Positions 1 through 5,649 of a stretch of DNA of 5,649 nucleotides are shown here, piece after piece; the stretch's first letter is position 1; every line of letters begins with the position of its first letter. The notes under the pieces were generated by a model. The model had not been told where the DNA came from. It did not search any database and was given only the letters and a program-made list of their open reading frames with translations. A program made the position numbers and the translations under genes. The stretch comes from an uncultured Clostridia bacterium (GTDB lineage Bacteria > Bacillota_A > Clostridia > Oscillospirales > Oscillospiraceae). The DNA is taken from assembly GCA_946408145.1 (NCBI GenBank), contig CAMJQX010000111.1:1-5649 (forward strand). Reading direction: 5' to 3'.

Positions 1-201
1 TACAACATCTGCATCATGGAGGAGCTGTGCAGCATCCTGGCCATGGGCGGGGGCGGCTCCACGAAGCTGATCGCACCCGGCGACGGGCGCAACATCCGCC
101 TGATGGCGCCGAAGTACCCTCTGGAGTACATCAACAGCGTCGAAAAGACCTGTGGAGATAAAGCCAAGATCGCAGAATTCTACAAAAAGGAGGAAGACTG
201 A
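1..201 (+). CDS. hemZ: HemZ-type coproporphyrinogen dehydrogenase, C-terminal 66 residues (5' end outside window)
   Basis: Partial gene: the reading frame is open from base 1 (Y-N-I-C-I-M-E-E-L) to a TGA at 199-201, so only the last 66 residues are visible. The glycine-rich run A-M-G-G-G-G-S-T-K-L (residues 14-23 of the fragment), followed by a short linker and a P-x-E-Y-I-N segment, is the C-terminal signature I recognise from clostridial HemZ proteins. These are radical-SAM enzymes related to oxygen-independent coproporphyrinogen III oxidase, and they are placed in tetrapyrrole synthesis. The radical-SAM CxxxCxxC motif would lie upstream of the window and cannot be checked here. An ATG at 16 is internal to the gene, not a start. 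The stop codon shares one base with the start of the next gene, so the two are probably cotranscribed and translationally coupled. HemW-like paralogues are the main alternative, but the GGGGSTKL tail favours HemZ. Confidence 0.82.
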   Translation, partial: YNICIMEELCSILAMGGGGSTKLIAPGDGRNIRLMAPKYPLEYINSVEKTCGDKAKIAEFYKKEED

Positions 202-1136
202 TGGCCTATCAGCTGACCGATATCAATTTCCGCACGATCTCCGATCCGAAAGAATTCGTCGAGGAGTGCGACGCGCGCTATGAGGGCGAGGTGAAGGTCG
301 CCGCGGAGATGATCCTCGAAAACCGGGGCAAGAGCCCGATCATCCTGCTCTCCGGCCCCTCCGGCTCCGGCAAGACGACCACCGCCATGAAGATCTCCGA
401 CGAGCTGGAGAAGCAGGGCGTCCACTGCCACTATGTGGCCATGGACGACTACTTCAACACCGTCGACCCCGCGACCTCTCCGCGCACGCCGGAGGGGGAC
501 ATCGACCTCGAATCGCCCCTGTGCCTCGATATGGAGCTGCTGAACAAGCACTTCACGATGCTCGCGCGGGGAGAGCGCATCTATGTGCCGAAGTACGAGT
601 TCTCCCGCCAGATGCGCATTCAGGAACCGTCCAAGTCCATCAAGCTCAAGAAGGATGAGATGGTCGTCTTCGAGGGCATCCACGCGCTCAACGACATGAT
701 CACCGTCCGGCACCCGGAGGCCTTCAAGCTCTATATCTCCGCCCGCAGCGATGTGGCCTTCAACGGCAGCATCATTTTCAAGCGCACCTGGTTCCGTCTC
801 GTGCGCCGTCTGGTGCGGGACTACAACTTCCGCGGCTCCGACCCGGCGCTGACAATGTCCATGTGGGCCAACGTCCGGCGCGGGGAGCTGAGCAATATCT
901 CACCCTTCAAGAGCAAGGCCGACCTGCGCTTCGACACCTCGCACGCCTATGAGCCTCCGCTCTTCAACGCTACCGCCACGAAGCTCTTCTCCTCCGTGCC
1001 CGAGGGCATCGAGCGCTACGAGGAACTGCGTCAGGTCCTGCCCGCGCTGCAGCTCTTCGGCCACATCGACGAGAGCCTGATCGCCCCCGACGCGCTGGTG
1101 CGCGAGTTCATCGGCGGCGGGATCTATGAGTATTGA
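201..1136 (+). CDS. Uridine-kinase-like P-loop nucleoside kinase
   Basis: A 311-residue protein with a canonical Walker A motif, G-P-S-G-S-G-K-T-T at residues 52-60. It also has an A-M-D-D-Y-F-N-T segment at 80-87, matching the acidic substrate-binding strand of uridine/phosphoribulokinase-type kinases, and a V-F-E-G-I-H-A-L-N strand at 156-164 resembling their second conserved acidic motif. These place it in the uridine kinase/PRK superfamily of ATP-dependent phosphotransferases, probably cytosolic. About 50 residues precede the P-loop and about 145 follow the FEGIH motif, so it is longer than classical Udk (about 210 residues). The true substrate may therefore not be uridine. The start is well supported: AAGGAGG at 187-193 lies 7 nt upstream of the ATG, which overlaps the hemZ stop (TGATG). 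This coupling suggests coexpression with hemZ but does not reveal a shared pathway. The gene ends about 40 nt before a strong terminator. Kinase fold is certain; exact substrate is not. Confidence 0.88.
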   Translation: MAYQLTDINFRTISDPKEFVEECDARYEGEVKVAAEMILENRGKSPIILLSGPSGSGKTTTAMKISDELEKQGVHCHYVAMDDYFNTVDPATSPRTPEGDIDLESPLCLDMELLNKHFTMLARGERIYVPKYEFSRQMRIQEPSKSIKLKKDEMVVFEGIHALNDMITVRHPEAFKLYISARSDVAFNGSIIFKRTWFRLVRRLVRDYNFRGSDPALTMSMWANVRRGELSNISPFKSKADLRFDTSHAYEPPLFNATATKLFSSVPEGIERYEELRQVLPALQLFGHIDESLIAPDALVREFIGGGIYEY

Positions 1137-1228: not shown

Positions 1229-1507
1229 TTACGCCATGGCATAATCCAGCACCTCGCGCACGGCTGCCTTGATGCTCTCGTAAGTCATGCCGATATGGGC
1301 CTCAAATCGCTTTTCCCCATCCACATAGAAGGTCGGCACCGCATAGTAGTCGTAGCGGTCCGCCGTCTCCGGGTCGCGGGATTCCTCGATCTTTGTGATG
1401 GGGATCTCCCGATAGGCGGGGTTCTCGGCGAAGAGCTCCTCCATGGCGCGGTGCGCCTTGTGACAGTAGCCGCAGTCGTCCAGATAAAACATCAATACAG
1501 GCTTCAT
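1229..1507 (-). CDS. Small thioredoxin-fold protein with CGYC motif
   Basis: A 92-residue protein with a single thioredoxin-like domain. The first beta strand is V-L-M-F-Y-L (4-9). The redox motif C-G-Y-C follows at 12-15, and A-V-P-T-F at 56-60 provides the cis-proline expected opposite the active site. A D-G-E turn and a final helix complete the fold. It most likely acts as a cytosolic thiol-disulfide reductant, but CGYC differs from the classical CGPC of thioredoxin, so glutaredoxin-like or specialised roles are possible. The ATG at 1505-1507 was chosen because a purine-rich ribosome site (GGAG at 1515-1518, spacing 7 nt) precedes it and because it overlaps the aminotransferase stop as ATGA. 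A longer in-frame reading to 1837 is only the shadow of that upstream gene. It is the last gene of the operon; its link to a C-S lyase upstream hints at sulfur or redox metabolism (inference). Confidence 0.85.
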   Translation of the reverse strand: MKPVLMFYLDDCGYCHKAHRAMEELFAENPAYREIPITKIEESRDPETADRYDYYAVPTFYVDGEKRFEAHIGMTYESIKAAVREVLDYAMA

Positions 1508-2730
1508 TTGTCTTCTCCTCTCCTGTGGGCATAGATCGCGTCGCGCATGCGGCGGAGGCCTTTTTCGACCACAGCGCGCGGCATGGCTAAATTCAGCCGC
1601 ACAAAGCCCTCCGCGTCGTCGACAAAGAAGGCGTTGCCGCCTTCGAGGATCACGCCGGCTTTTTTGGCAAAGAAGTCCGGCAGATCCCGCACGTCGGGCA
1701 GGCAGGCGCGCAGATCCACCCACGCGAGATAGGTCGCCTCCGGCACGCTGAACACCGCCTCGGGCAGCTCGTCGGCCAAAAAGCGCTCGAGCAGGGCGAA
1801 GTTCCCGTCCAGATAGACCTTCAGCTGCCGCAGCCACTCGCCGCCCTGCTCGTAAGCGGCCTGGTGCGCGGCCAGCGACAGGGGATTGAGCATCCCGCAG
1901 GCCTTGGCGCGGGCCTTGAAACGCTTCCGCTCCGCCTCGTCCCGGATCAGCACCGCGGACAGCAGCAGCCCTGCGATGTTGAAGGTCTTGCTCGCGGACA
2001 TGCAGGTGACGAGCCTGTCATAGTCCGGCAGGATCCTGCCCATCGGCATGTGCCGCAGCCCGCTGCGCAGCAGGTCGCAGTGGATCTCGTCCGAGACGAT
2101 CCACAGTCCGTACTCGCAGGAGATGCGGGCGATCTCGCGCAGCTCCGCCTCCGTCCACACGCGCCCGGTGGGATTGTGGGGGTTGCACAGAAGCAGCAGC
2201 TTTGTGTCGGGGTCGGCGGCCTTGCGCTCGAAATCGGCGAAGTCGATGATGAAGCGCCCCGTCCCGTCCCGGCGCAGGGGCGAGCGCAGCAGCTCCACGC
2301 CGCTGTATTCGCAGGCCTGCAGGAACTGGCTGTAGGCCGGCGTCATGGTCAGCACCTTGCCGCCCTGCGGCACCAGATCCTCCACCAGCTGCTTGAGCGC
2401 ATAGACCACGCCCGGCGTGCAGCAGAGCTCTTCCTCCCGGAAATCCCAGCCGTAGAGCTCCCGGCACCATTGGCGCAGCGCGCGGACGTAGCCGCCGTCG
2501 TACATGCCGGTGTAGCCGAAGATGCGCCGGTCGAGACGCGCGCGGATGGCTTCGCAGATCTCCGGCGCGACGGCGAACTCCATGTCCGCCACCCACATGC
2601 GGACAATATCATCGTCGCTCCAGGGCAGCGTTTCGCCCGGCTCAAGGCGCAGGATGCTGCCGCGATAGCCGTCGGTATTGACGGCGTTGGTGTTCCGCCG
2701 TTCAACGATCTCGTCAAAATTGCAGGTCAT
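1504..2730 (-). CDS. MalY/PatB-family PLP-dependent C-S lyase/aminotransferase (putative cystathionine beta-lyase)
   Basis: A 408-residue fold-type I PLP enzyme of normal family length. Diagnostic positions are M-W-V-A-D-M-E-F (45-52), typical of MalY/PatB proteins; F-G-Y-T-G (71-75); N-P-H-N-P-T-G (183-189); S-D-E-I-H-C-D-L (213-220), with D214 expected to contact the pyridine nitrogen; S-A-S-K-T-F-N (245-251), with K248 as the Schiff-base lysine; and R-L-N-L-A (378-382), with R378 expected to bind the substrate carboxylate. Family members cleave cystathionine or cysteine to a thiol or sulfide, pyruvate and ammonia, and some act as aminotransferases, so the substrate remains open. The ATG at 2728-2730 is preceded by a GGGGGA site. 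It lies 21 nt after the acyltransferase gene and its stop overlaps the thioredoxin start by ATGA, which implies one leftward transcript. All catalytic residues are present and no frameshift is seen. Confidence 0.92.
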   Translation of the reverse strand: MTCNFDEIVERRNTNAVNTDGYRGSILRLEPGETLPWSDDDIVRMWVADMEFAVAPEICEAIRARLDRRIFGYTGMYDGGYVRALRQWCRELYGWDFREEELCCTPGVVYALKQLVEDLVPQGGKVLTMTPAYSQFLQACEYSGVELLRSPLRRDGTGRFIIDFADFERKAADPDTKLLLLCNPHNPTGRVWTEAELREIARISCEYGLWIVSDEIHCDLLRSGLRHMPMGRILPDYDRLVTCMSASKTFNIAGLLLSAVLIRDEAERKRFKARAKACGMLNPLSLAAHQAAYEQGGEWLRQLKVYLDGNFALLERFLADELPEAVFSVPEATYLAWVDLRACLPDVRDLPDFFAKKAGVILEGGNAFFVDDAEGFVRLNLAMPRAVVEKGLRRMRDAIYAHRRGEDK

Positions 2731-4019: not shown

Positions 4020-4433
4020 TTGGTCAACATCATTTTGGGTCTGAAAGGATCCGGCAAGACGAAGAAGCTGGTGGATCTGGTGCGCGACGCTGTCAATCAG
4101 GAGACCGGAGACGTCGTCGTCATTGAGCGCGAGCGAAAGCTCACCTTTGACATCCCCTATCAGGCCCGACTGATCGACGCAGGCAATTACGATATCGGCA
4201 GCTATGAGTTCCTCAAGGGCATCATCTGCGGCGTGCATGCCGGCAACTATGACATCACGCATTTCTTTATCGATAATTTCTACAAGCTCGTAAACGACAA
4301 GAGCGTGGAGGCGCTGGAGGCCTTCCTGGCCTGGCTGGACAAGTTCTCCGAGCAGGAGAAGATCAGCTTCATCATTTCCATCTCCGCCGACCCCGACACC
4401 GTGTCCGACAAGGTGCGGGCCTACGCCATCTGA
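4020..4433 (+). CDS. Small P-loop ATP-binding protein of unknown function (clostridial type)
   Basis: A 137-residue protein starting at TTG. Strand V-N-I-I-L-G leads straight into a Walker A motif, G-L-K-G-S-G-K-T at residues 7-14, with K13 and T14 as the nucleotide contacts. H-F-F-I-D (81-85) is a hydrophobic strand ending in an acid and is a candidate Walker B; F-I-I-S-I-S-A (117-123) looks like a further core beta strand of the fold. No kinase lid, helicase, AAA or secretion-ATPase motifs are visible. I recall similar short proteins in Clostridia annotated as hypothetical or, misleadingly, as 'twitching motility protein PilT'. Nothing here supports a pilus role, since there is no pilus gene nearby and the protein is far shorter than PilT. 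It is a single-gene unit with its own promoter and terminator. Nucleotide binding is likely, while hydrolysis, partner and pathway are unknown. Assigning a function would be guesswork. Confidence 0.82.
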   Translation: MVNIILGLKGSGKTKKLVDLVRDAVNQETGDVVVIERERKLTFDIPYQARLIDAGNYDIGSYEFLKGIICGVHAGNYDITHFFIDNFYKLVNDKSVEALEAFLAWLDKFSEQEKISFIISISADPDTVSDKVRAYAI

Positions 4434-4451: not shown

Positions 4452-4487
4452 AAAAGATCCCGCTGTCAACAGACAGCGGGATCTTTT
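4452..4487. terminator. Bidirectional intrinsic terminator between the P-loop gene and the folate operon
   Basis: A perfect 16-bp stem pairs 4452-4467 (AAAAGATCCCGCTGTC) with 4472-4487 around the 4-nt loop AACA. The T4 end on the + strand and the A5 at 4451-4455 (U-tract on the - strand) let it serve both convergent transcripts. Its last base is the first base of the cyclo-ligase stop codon triplet (4487-4489). Confidence 0.9.
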
Positions 4488-5032
4488 CAATAGACCGCGA
4501 GCTCTGTCACCACCGCGTCCATCGGCAGGTCGTGCGCCTCGCAGACGACGATGGGCAGCTTCTGGCTCTCGAAGGCCACGGCTATGATCGCGGCGCCGGT
4601 GCAGCGGGGGAGGAAGCGGTCGTAATATCCCGCGCCGTGCCCCAGGCGGCGGCGCTGCTCGTCAAATGCCACGCATGGGACGATCACCAGATCGATCTCC
4701 TCCGGAGACACGAAAACGGAATCCGCCCTGTCCGGCTCGCGGATACCGTAGGGCCCGAGCGTCCATCCGCCCGGCTCCCGGGCCTCCAGCATGCCGTGCG
4801 GGAGGCTCACAGGGAAGACCAGACGGATGCCGCGCTGAAGAAGCACTTCATGCAGCGCGCTCAGATCCGCCTCGTCGTCCAGCGCCATATAGCTCAGCAC
4901 TGTCCGTGCATTCCGCAGCGCCGGCAGAGCTGCGAGACGCGCGCAGATCTCCGCGGAGGCCGCGGCACGCGCCTCCGGCGTCATCGCCCGCCTTGCGGCG
5001 AGGGCGATCTCACGCTGTTCCCGCTTGCTCAT
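4487..5032 (-). CDS. 5-formyltetrahydrofolate cyclo-ligase (methenyl-THF synthetase, YgfA family)
   Basis: A 181-residue cytosolic enzyme of normal family length. It converts 5-formyl-THF plus ATP to 5,10-methenyl-THF, the only well-established route that returns folinate to the active one-carbon pool. Visible family marks are a basic N-terminal helix (K3, R4, R7, R14, R15), the G-P-Y-G-I-R-E-P substrate segment (93-100), D-L-V-I-V-P-C-V-A-F-D (114-124) and the nucleotide-binding signature R-L-G-H-G-A-G-Y-Y-D-R (129-139). A common form of that signature is G-Y-G-G-G-Y-Y-D-R; the His and Ala substitutions look tolerable. The C-terminal H-D-L-P-M-D-A-V-V-T-E (167-177) also fits. The ATG at 5030-5032 has GGAGGT (complement of 5038-5043) 5 nt upstream and overlaps the folT stop by ATGA, so it should be translated together with folT and share its leader control. 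An in-frame reading back to 5632 is a shadow of folT and its leader. Confidence 0.93.
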   Translation of the reverse strand: MSKREQREIALAARRAMTPEARAAASAEICARLAALPALRNARTVLSYMALDDEADLSALHEVLLQRGIRLVFPVSLPHGMLEAREPGGWTLGPYGIREPDRADSVFVSPEEIDLVIVPCVAFDEQRRRLGHGAGYYDRFLPRCTGAAIIAVAFESQKLPIVVCEAHDLPMDAVVTELAVY

Positions 5033-5532
5033 GCGGCACCTCCGCGGATGCGCGGCAGCAGGCGCGCGATCAGCGGGATCACGACCAGCTGCACCGCGGC
5101 GAGGATCGCGCACTGGGGCAGGCGCGAAACCAGCAGGGGAACAAAGGGCGAGCCGTAGAGGAGAGAGATCCAGAGCGTGTTGAGCAGCAGGCTCAGGATC
5201 AGCTGGTGAACGGCAACCGCGCCGAGGATGCGCGGGAAGCTCTGGCTCCGGTACAGGAACAGGCCGTAGCACAGGCCCATCAGGAAAGCCGTCAGCGTGA
5301 AGCCGGGAAAATATGTCCCGATCGGGAACAGGATCGCGCCGAGAAAATCGGCGAGGGCGCCGACGATCCCCGCGTACAGCGGGCCGAGCAGGATGGCCGC
5401 GATGACCACCGGCACAAAGGCAAAGCCGATCTTGGTGTTCCAGGCGCTGATCGACAGAAAGCGGGAGAGTACGATCTCCAGCGCGATCAGCAGCGCCATG
5501 CTCGTCAGGGTTCTGGTGCTGAATCTGGGCAT
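5029..5532 (-). CDS. folT: Folate-specific ECF transporter S component
   Basis: A 167-residue membrane protein with about six hydrophobic helices, the size and layout of ECF S components. Helix 1 has A-L-L-I-A (13-17), an AxxxA motif of the kind S components use to dock on the EcfT coupling protein. The segment F-P-I-G-T-Y-F-P-G-F-T-L-T-A-F-L-M-G (69-86) with Y-G following, the N-T-L-W motif (118-121) and the S-R-L-P-Q loop (136-140) are the features I associate with FolT. It would bind folate outside the membrane and use a shared EcfA/A'/T module encoded elsewhere (group II arrangement); no energising genes are in the window. The ATG at 5530-5532 was preferred over an in-frame GTG at 5562 because AAAGGAG lies 8 nt upstream of the ATG, while the GTG sits inside the leader hairpin. 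The folate assignment is reinforced by the cyclo-ligase partner and the leader structure. Confidence 0.88.
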   Translation of the reverse strand: MPRFSTRTLTSMALLIALEIVLSRFLSISAWNTKIGFAFVPVVIAAILLGPLYAGIVGALADFLGAILFPIGTYFPGFTLTAFLMGLCYGLFLYRSQSFPRILGAVAVHQLILSLLLNTLWISLLYGSPFVPLLVSRLPQCAILAAVQLVVIPLIARLLPRIRGGAA

Positions 5533-5540
5533 GAAAAAGA

Positions 5541-5586
5541 CTCCTTTCGTGACAGTTGCCACGAAAGGAGTTGCCCTTTGGTGGCA
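5541..5586 (-). promoter_or_regulatory. folT expression platform: two mutually exclusive hairpins, one hiding the Shine-Dalgarno site
   Basis: On the - strand RNA, a sequestor stem pairs CUCCUUUCGUG (complement of 5560-5570) with CACGAAAGGAG (complement of 5541-5551): 11 perfect pairs, loop 5552-5559. Its 3' arm contains AAAGGAG, the folT ribosome site. A competing stem pairs UGCCAC-C-AAAGG (complement of 5575-5586) with CCUUU-C-GUGGCA (complement of 5557-5568): 11 pairs and one C-C mismatch, loop 5569-5574. Both need the same CCUUUCGUG strand, so only one can form. The upstream one forms first and frees the ribosome site. There is no U-tract after the sequestor, so control should be at translation rather than by termination. 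Confidence 0.75.
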
Positions 5587-5649
5587 GCGGAAGCGGAGAC
5601 AGCACCGATTTCGTCCGCGGACAACTTCCCATCCCGCGGCACTCCAGGC
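5580..5649 (-). promoter_or_regulatory. Tetrahydrofolate riboswitch (class I type), 3' part; 5' arm lies beyond the window
   Basis: Read on the - strand. A P3 stem pairs CCGCGG (complement of 5634-5639) with CCGCGG (complement of 5615-5620) around a 13-nt loop GAUGGGAAGUUGU, followed directly by ACGAA and then CGGUG. From memory, the known THF riboswitch has a 13-nt P3 loop AAUGGGAUGUCGU followed by ACGAA; 10 of 13 loop bases agree. That class folds its loop GGAUG onto a downstream CAUCC. Here the loop has GGAAG (complement of 5625-5629) and the downstream strand has CUUCC (complement of 5589-5593), a compensatory change that keeps all five pairs. The following CGCUGCCACC would be the 3' side of P1. 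The 5' sides of P1 and P2 fall outside the window, and a P4-like hairpin is not evident, so this is a strong but incomplete match. Location directly before folT fits the known role of the class. Confidence 0.74.

Follow-up and report, generated by a model that had tools for sequence, protein, structure and literature searches.

The closest described counterpart of the locus presented here is the THF-I riboswitch (Rfam RF01831), whose aptamer carries the helix P4 between P3 and P2, within a three-way junction; in the canonical model the end of P4 immediately adjoins P2. Two ligands have been seen bound to THF-I aptamers. As far as the available part of PMC9881143 goes, the site at the junction has a role in folding rather than in control, and U7, U35 and U42 are given as contacts of the pseudoknot site and U25 and C53 as those of the junction site; the available part of PMC11477058 adds a triple of A8, A34 and G44. 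The THF-II riboswitch (folE motif) likewise senses a reduced folate but, according to the accessible sections of PMC6800512 and PMC9881143, with a two-helix aptamer that does not contain this junction. A likeness of another kind is offered by the non-circularly permuted hammerhead ribozymes, which the accessible part of PMC10085705 presents as natural RNAs with parts reconnected in a different order and the core kept. These are ribozymes, however, whereas in the THF-I form described below one junction helix alone moves, and a word search of the main text of PMC10085705 found neither THF nor tetrahydrofolate. A THF-I form devoid of P4, or one with a four-way junction, is not described in the portion of the literature searched, and a mention in the primary papers or in the Rfam full alignment is possible.

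The window, i.e., the whole analysed stretch of 5,649 nucleotides from an uncultured Clostridia bacterium, carries at its edge, on the minus strand, what its sequence identifies as a THF-I (RF01831) riboswitch aptamer; positions 5649-5580 (GCCUGGAGUGCCGCGGGAUGGGAAGUUGUCCGCGGACGAAAUCGGUGCUGUCUCCGCUUCCGCUGCCACC) contain the 3′-terminal two thirds of it, the rest being cut off by the window edge. RF01831 was the top one of four Rfam matches for the window (E up to 10), among which the THF-II riboswitch was absent. The match spans 5649-5583, is flagged as 5′-truncated and reaches 31.0 bits (E 0.001), staying under the gathering cut-off of 36 because the aptamer is cut by the edge and has no P4, while the 15 relatives that likewise have no P4 score above it, at 36.8-48.4 bits. 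A covariance model built from nine of these relatives (R1; L001, L002, L003, L013, L014, L035, L040, L045 and L078), in which the window is not included, gives 73.4 bits with a rough E-value of 1.7e-19. Both matches, the TIGR04518 folT gene downstream and the complete aptamers of the nearest relatives bear out the proposal of an earlier note on this DNA that a THF-I riboswitch lies ahead of folT.

Going inwards from the cut edge along the minus strand, the first element is GCC at 5647..5649, which the R1 alignment, running from model position 34 on, places as the 3′ arm of a hairpin between P2 and P3 (J2/3). The 5′ arm would fall past the window edge; the hairpin is complete in 15 relatives and is presumably present in the window's own 5′ half as well. 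The linker UGGA (5643..5646), for which the 15 rows have UG(G/A)A without exception, leads from the hairpin to P3, whose 5′ strand (5633..5642), loop L3 (AUGGGAAGUUG, 5622..5632) and 3′ strand (5613..5621), closing with the AC of ACGAA, are matched by both RF01831 and R1. P3 and its loop lie where they had been expected on the minus strand, but the loop has 11 nucleotides by the Rfam model and not 13. The remaining GAA of the junction, together with AU at the place of P4, occupies 5608..5612 and is followed by the 3′ strand of P2 (CGGUGCUGUCUCC, 5595..5607; again in both matches), the partner of which is known in L001. J2/1 (GCUUCCG, 5588..5594) and the 3′ strand of P1 (CUGCCAC, 5581..5587), which doubles as the 5′ strand of a possible antiterminator, come last, both placed by the RF01831 match. 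ACGAA, CGGUG and the downstream strand GCUUCCGCUGCC were all recovered at their proposed place. Of P1 and P2 the window holds the 3′ strands only; in the 15 relatives both helices are complete, with GAGUA.

One departure from the THF-I class concerns P4. Its segment consists of two bases (AU) in the window and of AU or GU in all 13 distinct aptamers of the same type, as opposed to 9-33 bases in canonical rows with a wholly parsed P4 segment. The earlier note had correctly seen a short segment after ACGAA without a P4 hairpin, but its reading of a shortened three-way junction did not hold, as the relatives keep three helices, with the third one on the 5′ instead of the 3′ side of P3. As read from the aligned sequences, close relatives of the window show a new THF-I junction arrangement, hereafter called shifted. 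Beyond P4 and the hairpin, the likeness to RF01831 covers P1 and P2 (complete in the relatives), P3, the L3/J2/1 pseudoknot, ACGAA, the named contact letters, the folT context and a terminator-like hairpin over the Shine-Dalgarno sequence.

The pseudoknot deserves separate consideration. The strand GGAAG within L3 (5625..5629) is complementary to CUUCC of J2/1 (5593-5589), and the five pairs occur in the window and in 13 out of 13 distinct shifted relatives with no variation. It had been taken for a covarying pseudoknot in which GGAAG/CUUCC replaced a class-wide GGAUG/CAUCC pairing; the complementarity was confirmed, but not the covariation, the A-U pair being invariant in the shifted aptamers. 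In the 95 distinct aptamers that share the prevalent loop register (37 further aptamers, with another register or a failed parse, stand outside the count), the disputed position holds A-U in 27, A.A in 25, G.A in 20, U.G in 11, U-A in 4, A.G in 4, C.A in 3 and G.U in 1, so that a standard pair is found in 43 of 95 and the U-A state of GGAUG/CAUCC is a minority one. The GGAAG/CUUCC state fits pairing, yet it is weak evidence of covariation, and one substitution in the common A.A state may have sufficed to produce it. CUUCC in place of CAUCC is a difference from the described class that is common to the canonical sisters; paired with GGAAG it completes the pseudoknot both in the shifted type and in these sisters, at a position often unpaired across the class.

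Contact positions were placed by what we take to be the S. mutans aptamer sequence, the letters of which agree with all eight named residues. In this numbering the letters at U7, A8, U25, A34, U35, U42, G44 and C53 are unchanged in all 15 shifted rows, and those that the window contains (U25, A34, U35, U42, G44 and C53) are unchanged too, the equivalents of A34, U35, U42 and G44 being situated in its L3. This bears on the idea that the shifted aptamer has an altered ligand preference, either for another reduced pterin or one-carbon form, or with one site instead of two. The junction rebuilt here lies beside one of the two ligand sites, and the genes behind the switch include that of a cyclo-ligase, an enzyme that uses up 5-formyl-THF and is fused to the transporter in some relatives; with the letters of the named junction-site contacts, U25 and C53, intact throughout, we regard such a change as rather improbable.

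Relatives of the locus were collected by scanning genome contigs with a FolT alignment of 25 homologues, taken from 120 matches listed. FolT relatives were encoded in 107 stretches, and the best 80 of 107 were kept and all scanned with Rfam, part of them at the gathering score and part by an E-value threshold. A THF aptamer above 36 bits was found in 61 of these best 80 loci, 43 of the 61 aptamers scoring 70-92 bits, while the closest loci (L001, L002 and L003) reached only 44.7-48.4. In L001, the nearest relative of the window, with a FolT 93% identical, a complete aptamer with P1 and P2 scores 44.7 bits, and the low scores of L002 and L003 are explained by their RF01831 alignments, in which P4 is absent and 12-13 bases are inserted before P3. 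Nine of the 61 aptamers have a hairpin between P2 and P3, for example GGC-CUGA-GCC, GACCGCC-GUC-GGCGGUC or GGGC-GAAA-GCCC, and only AU or GU at the place of P4.

The genus of L001, sampled with 102 genomes, was searched with both R1 and RF01831. R1 matched 45 of the 102 genomes, 15 with the shifted type at 96-125 bits and then, as the next one, the four-way aptamer of G009 at 85 bits. The count by RF01831 is the fairer one, as R1 contains the hairpin and RF01831 does not; it matched 49 genomes, 47 of them over the cut-off. These 49 matches comprise 31 canonical aptamers, each with a four-base J2/3 and P4, 15 without P4, two with both hairpins and one cut by a contig end (G400). The J2/3 hairpin is present in 15 out of 15 aptamers without P4 (13 distinct sequences), and the two species with both hairpins are G009 (loci L004/L154) and G010 (L060/L160). 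In a further genome, G450 (locus L005/L162), a shifted 3′ half is preceded by unrelated upstream sequence, and this swap of the 5′ half could be an assembly chimera or a natural truncation.

The hairpin itself is supported by comparison. Its first three pairs form in 39 out of 39 cells of the 13 distinct shifted sequences (15 rows), and over six pairs 95% of lettered cells pair. Double changes were found at pairs 27-43 and 28-42, from GC to AU in 2 and from CG to GC in 3. For the whole structure, none of 500 shuffles attained the covariation score and 8 had at least as many doubly changed cells, but 168 had at least as many doubly changed pairs (5), with the caveat that relatedness by itself can exceed shuffles; sliding of the partners abolishes pairing. 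An origin of the hairpin in chance or misassembly was rejected, as the hairpin returns, with compensatory changes, in 15 genome records. Outside the hairpin covariation is thin because the shifted aptamers closely resemble one another (86% identity per column on average in 15 rows); P1, P2, P3 and the pseudoknot vary little and add conservation rather than covariation. P2 also has unpaired cells, pair 16-93 being unpaired in 7 of 13. An unconstrained fold of L001 recovered P1, P2, the hairpin and most of P3; this free fold was no better than those of shuffles (z 0.77) and wrongly paired J1/2 with J2/1. P2 can be extended towards the hairpin by a U.U mismatch and then a U pairing with the first of the two bases at the P4 site (U-A in 9, U.G in 4), and therefore the hairpin starts directly on P2. 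The extra helix would stack on P2 in the canonical and shifted forms alike.

A simpler explanation could be that the locus is an ordinary THF-I riboswitch that has merely lost P4, with the J2/3 insertion as a passive loop and the junction site dispensable for regulation. The pseudoknot site is reported to be essential for regulation and the junction site important for folding (PMC9881143, in its available part), and J2/3 hairpins occur beside intact P4 as well, so a link between them is not required. A passive loop is nevertheless difficult to reconcile with the first three hairpin pairs surviving changes of sequence and length in 13 out of 13 distinct sequences, or with the finding that no aptamer among those parsed is devoid of both P4 and the J2/3 hairpin, and we consider this explanation unlikely. 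Even less plausible, to the point of being very improbable, is a decaying or non-functional remnant of a riboswitch. It could be suggested by the low Rfam score and by the 3′ half behind unrelated sequence in G450, but 15 rows agree at every named tertiary and ligand letter and the platform strands persist, while FolT diverges: in the nine shifted loci that share the transporter type of the window its identity to that of the window is 62-93%, in two more it is 32-33%, and four loci have no FolT match. The reading that we hold with considerable confidence is that the locus carries a helix-shifted THF-I sub-type, which keeps P1-P2-P3, the pseudoknot and the named contacts, has P4 replaced by a hairpin between P2 and P3, and would be turned off by folate.

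In regard to the distribution of the hairpin, J2/3 hairpins of at least 3 pairs are present in 36 of 132 distinct parsed aptamers, a sample that is enriched for low scorers and does not contain L092-L095, L102, L110 and L133. These are 13 shifted aptamers, 20 with P4, and L128, L132 and L137, which were assigned to neither group. The 20 with P4 comprise 16 recognised by program (L027, L051, L055, L064, L068, L075, L077, L079, L122-L127, L129 and L131) and four by eye (L004, L130, L160 and L175). Reading by eye also classed L023, L101, L113, L119 and L188 as canonical, L127 and L131 as four-way, and assigned L128 and L137 to neither, and P4 was visible in L100, L106, L114, L115, L116, L118, L136 and L163. 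Four-way aptamers carry the hairpin at the same place as the shifted form but retain P4, and in many of them the linkers (GUA, UUUA) and sequences differ from those of the shifted form, for which reason separate origins are likely.

The possibility that the form without P4 is widespread did not hold up in the order, class and family samples, P4 loss being seen in one genus only. With R1 at E<=1e-8, matches were found in 7 of the 394 genomes sampled from the order and in 3 of the 391 from the class; besides G001, the nearest kin of the window, these are eight canonical (L170-L174, L176 and L177) or four-way (L175) forms, and no R1 match other than that of G001 exceeded 60.7 bits in these two samples. 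In the family sample RF01831 matched 290 of 400 genomes. When R1 was applied to 30 weaker-scoring family matches, 17 of 30 were matched at E<=0.01, with 56.8 bits as the best, and none of these 30 was read as shifted, L128, L132 and L137 being assigned to no type. An exact pattern scan of viral contigs gave no match.

Two trees were used to address the origin of the arrangement. The rpoB tree of 44 genomes, with 13 of the 15 shifted ones, unites 12 shifted species with the four-way G010 in one clade (95/95), and puts G001 in another group (99/96), made up further of three canonical species, the four-way G009 and the truncated G450, so that the shifted species do not form one clade. The FolT tree, limited to 23 rows of the first transporter type (six shifted genomes with another type are left out), contains a supported branch (98/96) that sets 10 shifted rows, together with G450 and the four-way G010, apart from the others; the canonical rows form one group (99/97), and the four-way G009 is attached between canonical and shifted rows (98/96). 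The simplest order would lead from the canonical form through a four-way form to the loss of P4, with a later transfer of the operon. G010, which groups with shifted rows in both trees, needs a further step in such a four-way-first order. Alternatively, the form without P4 could have arisen repeatedly, by separate losses from four-way ancestors, instead of once with a subsequent transfer of the folT operon. The rpoB tree, in which shifted species are split between two supported groups, speaks for separate losses, while the FolT tree, with all 10 shifted rows on one side of a supported branch, speaks against them, and we treat them as a possible but less favoured course of events. It seems somewhat more probable than not that the junction helix changed sides, from P2-P3-P4 to P2-Px-P3 (Px denoting the new hairpin), through a four-way intermediate that still survives, the new helix being likewise joined straight to P2 and both ligand pockets retaining their letters.

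Downstream of the aptamer the window retains the folate-gene context known for RF01831. The gene folT, for the S component of a folate-family ECF transporter (5029..5532, minus strand; TIGR04518, 164.5 bits, cut-off 60), is followed by that of a 5-formyltetrahydrofolate cyclo-ligase (4487..5032, minus strand; TIGR02727, 153.6 bits, cut-off 84.9), the start of which overlaps the folT stop (ATGA). In two relatives (L144:1652-2734 and L045:219-1259) an ECF S component and the cyclo-ligase were found in one fused protein (PF12822 and PF01812), and such fusions suggest imported 5-formyl-THF as a substrate. A second, distant type of S component also stands behind the riboswitch in the same genus (L144, L147-L149, L152, L155-L159, L161, L163, L182, L185, L186 and L188); for four examples TIGR04518 (cut-off 60) gives 55-64 bits. 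Elsewhere in the window there are a small protein at 4021-4433 (plus strand) with a P-loop-like GLKGSGKT start, for which no Pfam or NCBIfam match was found at 0.001 and one weak AAA match at 0.022; a protein of 311 aa at 201-1136 (plus strand), with a phosphoribulokinase/uridine-kinase domain (PF00485, 75 bits) beside a HemZ-like C-terminus and under the cut-offs of named NCBIfam kinases; and a PatB-type C-S lyase at 1504-2730 (minus strand; 349.6 bits, cut-off 340).

Between the aptamer and folT, the minus strand is predicted to fold into a terminator-like hairpin of 14 pairs followed by CUUUUU (5540..5571), whose 3′ arm includes a Shine-Dalgarno-like AAAGGAG (5547-5541) eight bases before the folT start. 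According to the alternative folds, GUGGCA (5557..5562), in the 5′ arm of this hairpin, could instead pair with UGCCAC (5586-5581) as an antiterminator. All 23 relatives inspected keep CUGCCAC and GUGGC, as does the window. For one of the 23, L160 (G010), free folding of the platform prefers the antiterminator pairing, which speaks against the reading. Ligand binding is described as stabilising P1 in the THF-I class (available part of PMC11477058), from which the predicted outcome is OFF with folate, and the downstream pairings likewise suggest a folate OFF switch. The hairpin between P2 and P3 would supply the third helix of the junction, starting on the last P2 pair, and binding of a reduced folate would fix the pseudoknot and P1. 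With P1 formed, CUGCCAC would be occupied and could not pair with the downstream GUGGCA; in the absence of the antiterminator the U-tract hairpin would form and hide the folT Shine-Dalgarno sequence, so that plentiful folate would turn off folT and the cyclo-ligase. To judge from its sequence, the working of this RNA is most likely that of a THF-I riboswitch, though one defining part of it, P4, is missing.

The standard model scores aptamers without P4 near its cut-off and can therefore overlook truncated or divergent examples, the window being a case of this. At the same time, a natural form devoid of P4, with close four-way and canonical sisters, is a ready set for testing the role of P4 and of the junction site. 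The comparison suggests a way in which a folded RNA may be rewired with the letters of its known binding sites unchanged. If this is true, one helix was gained first and another lost afterwards, and the change of the helix from one side to the other would represent natural, non-circular rewiring in a riboswitch, the evolutionary steps of which are preserved within one genus.
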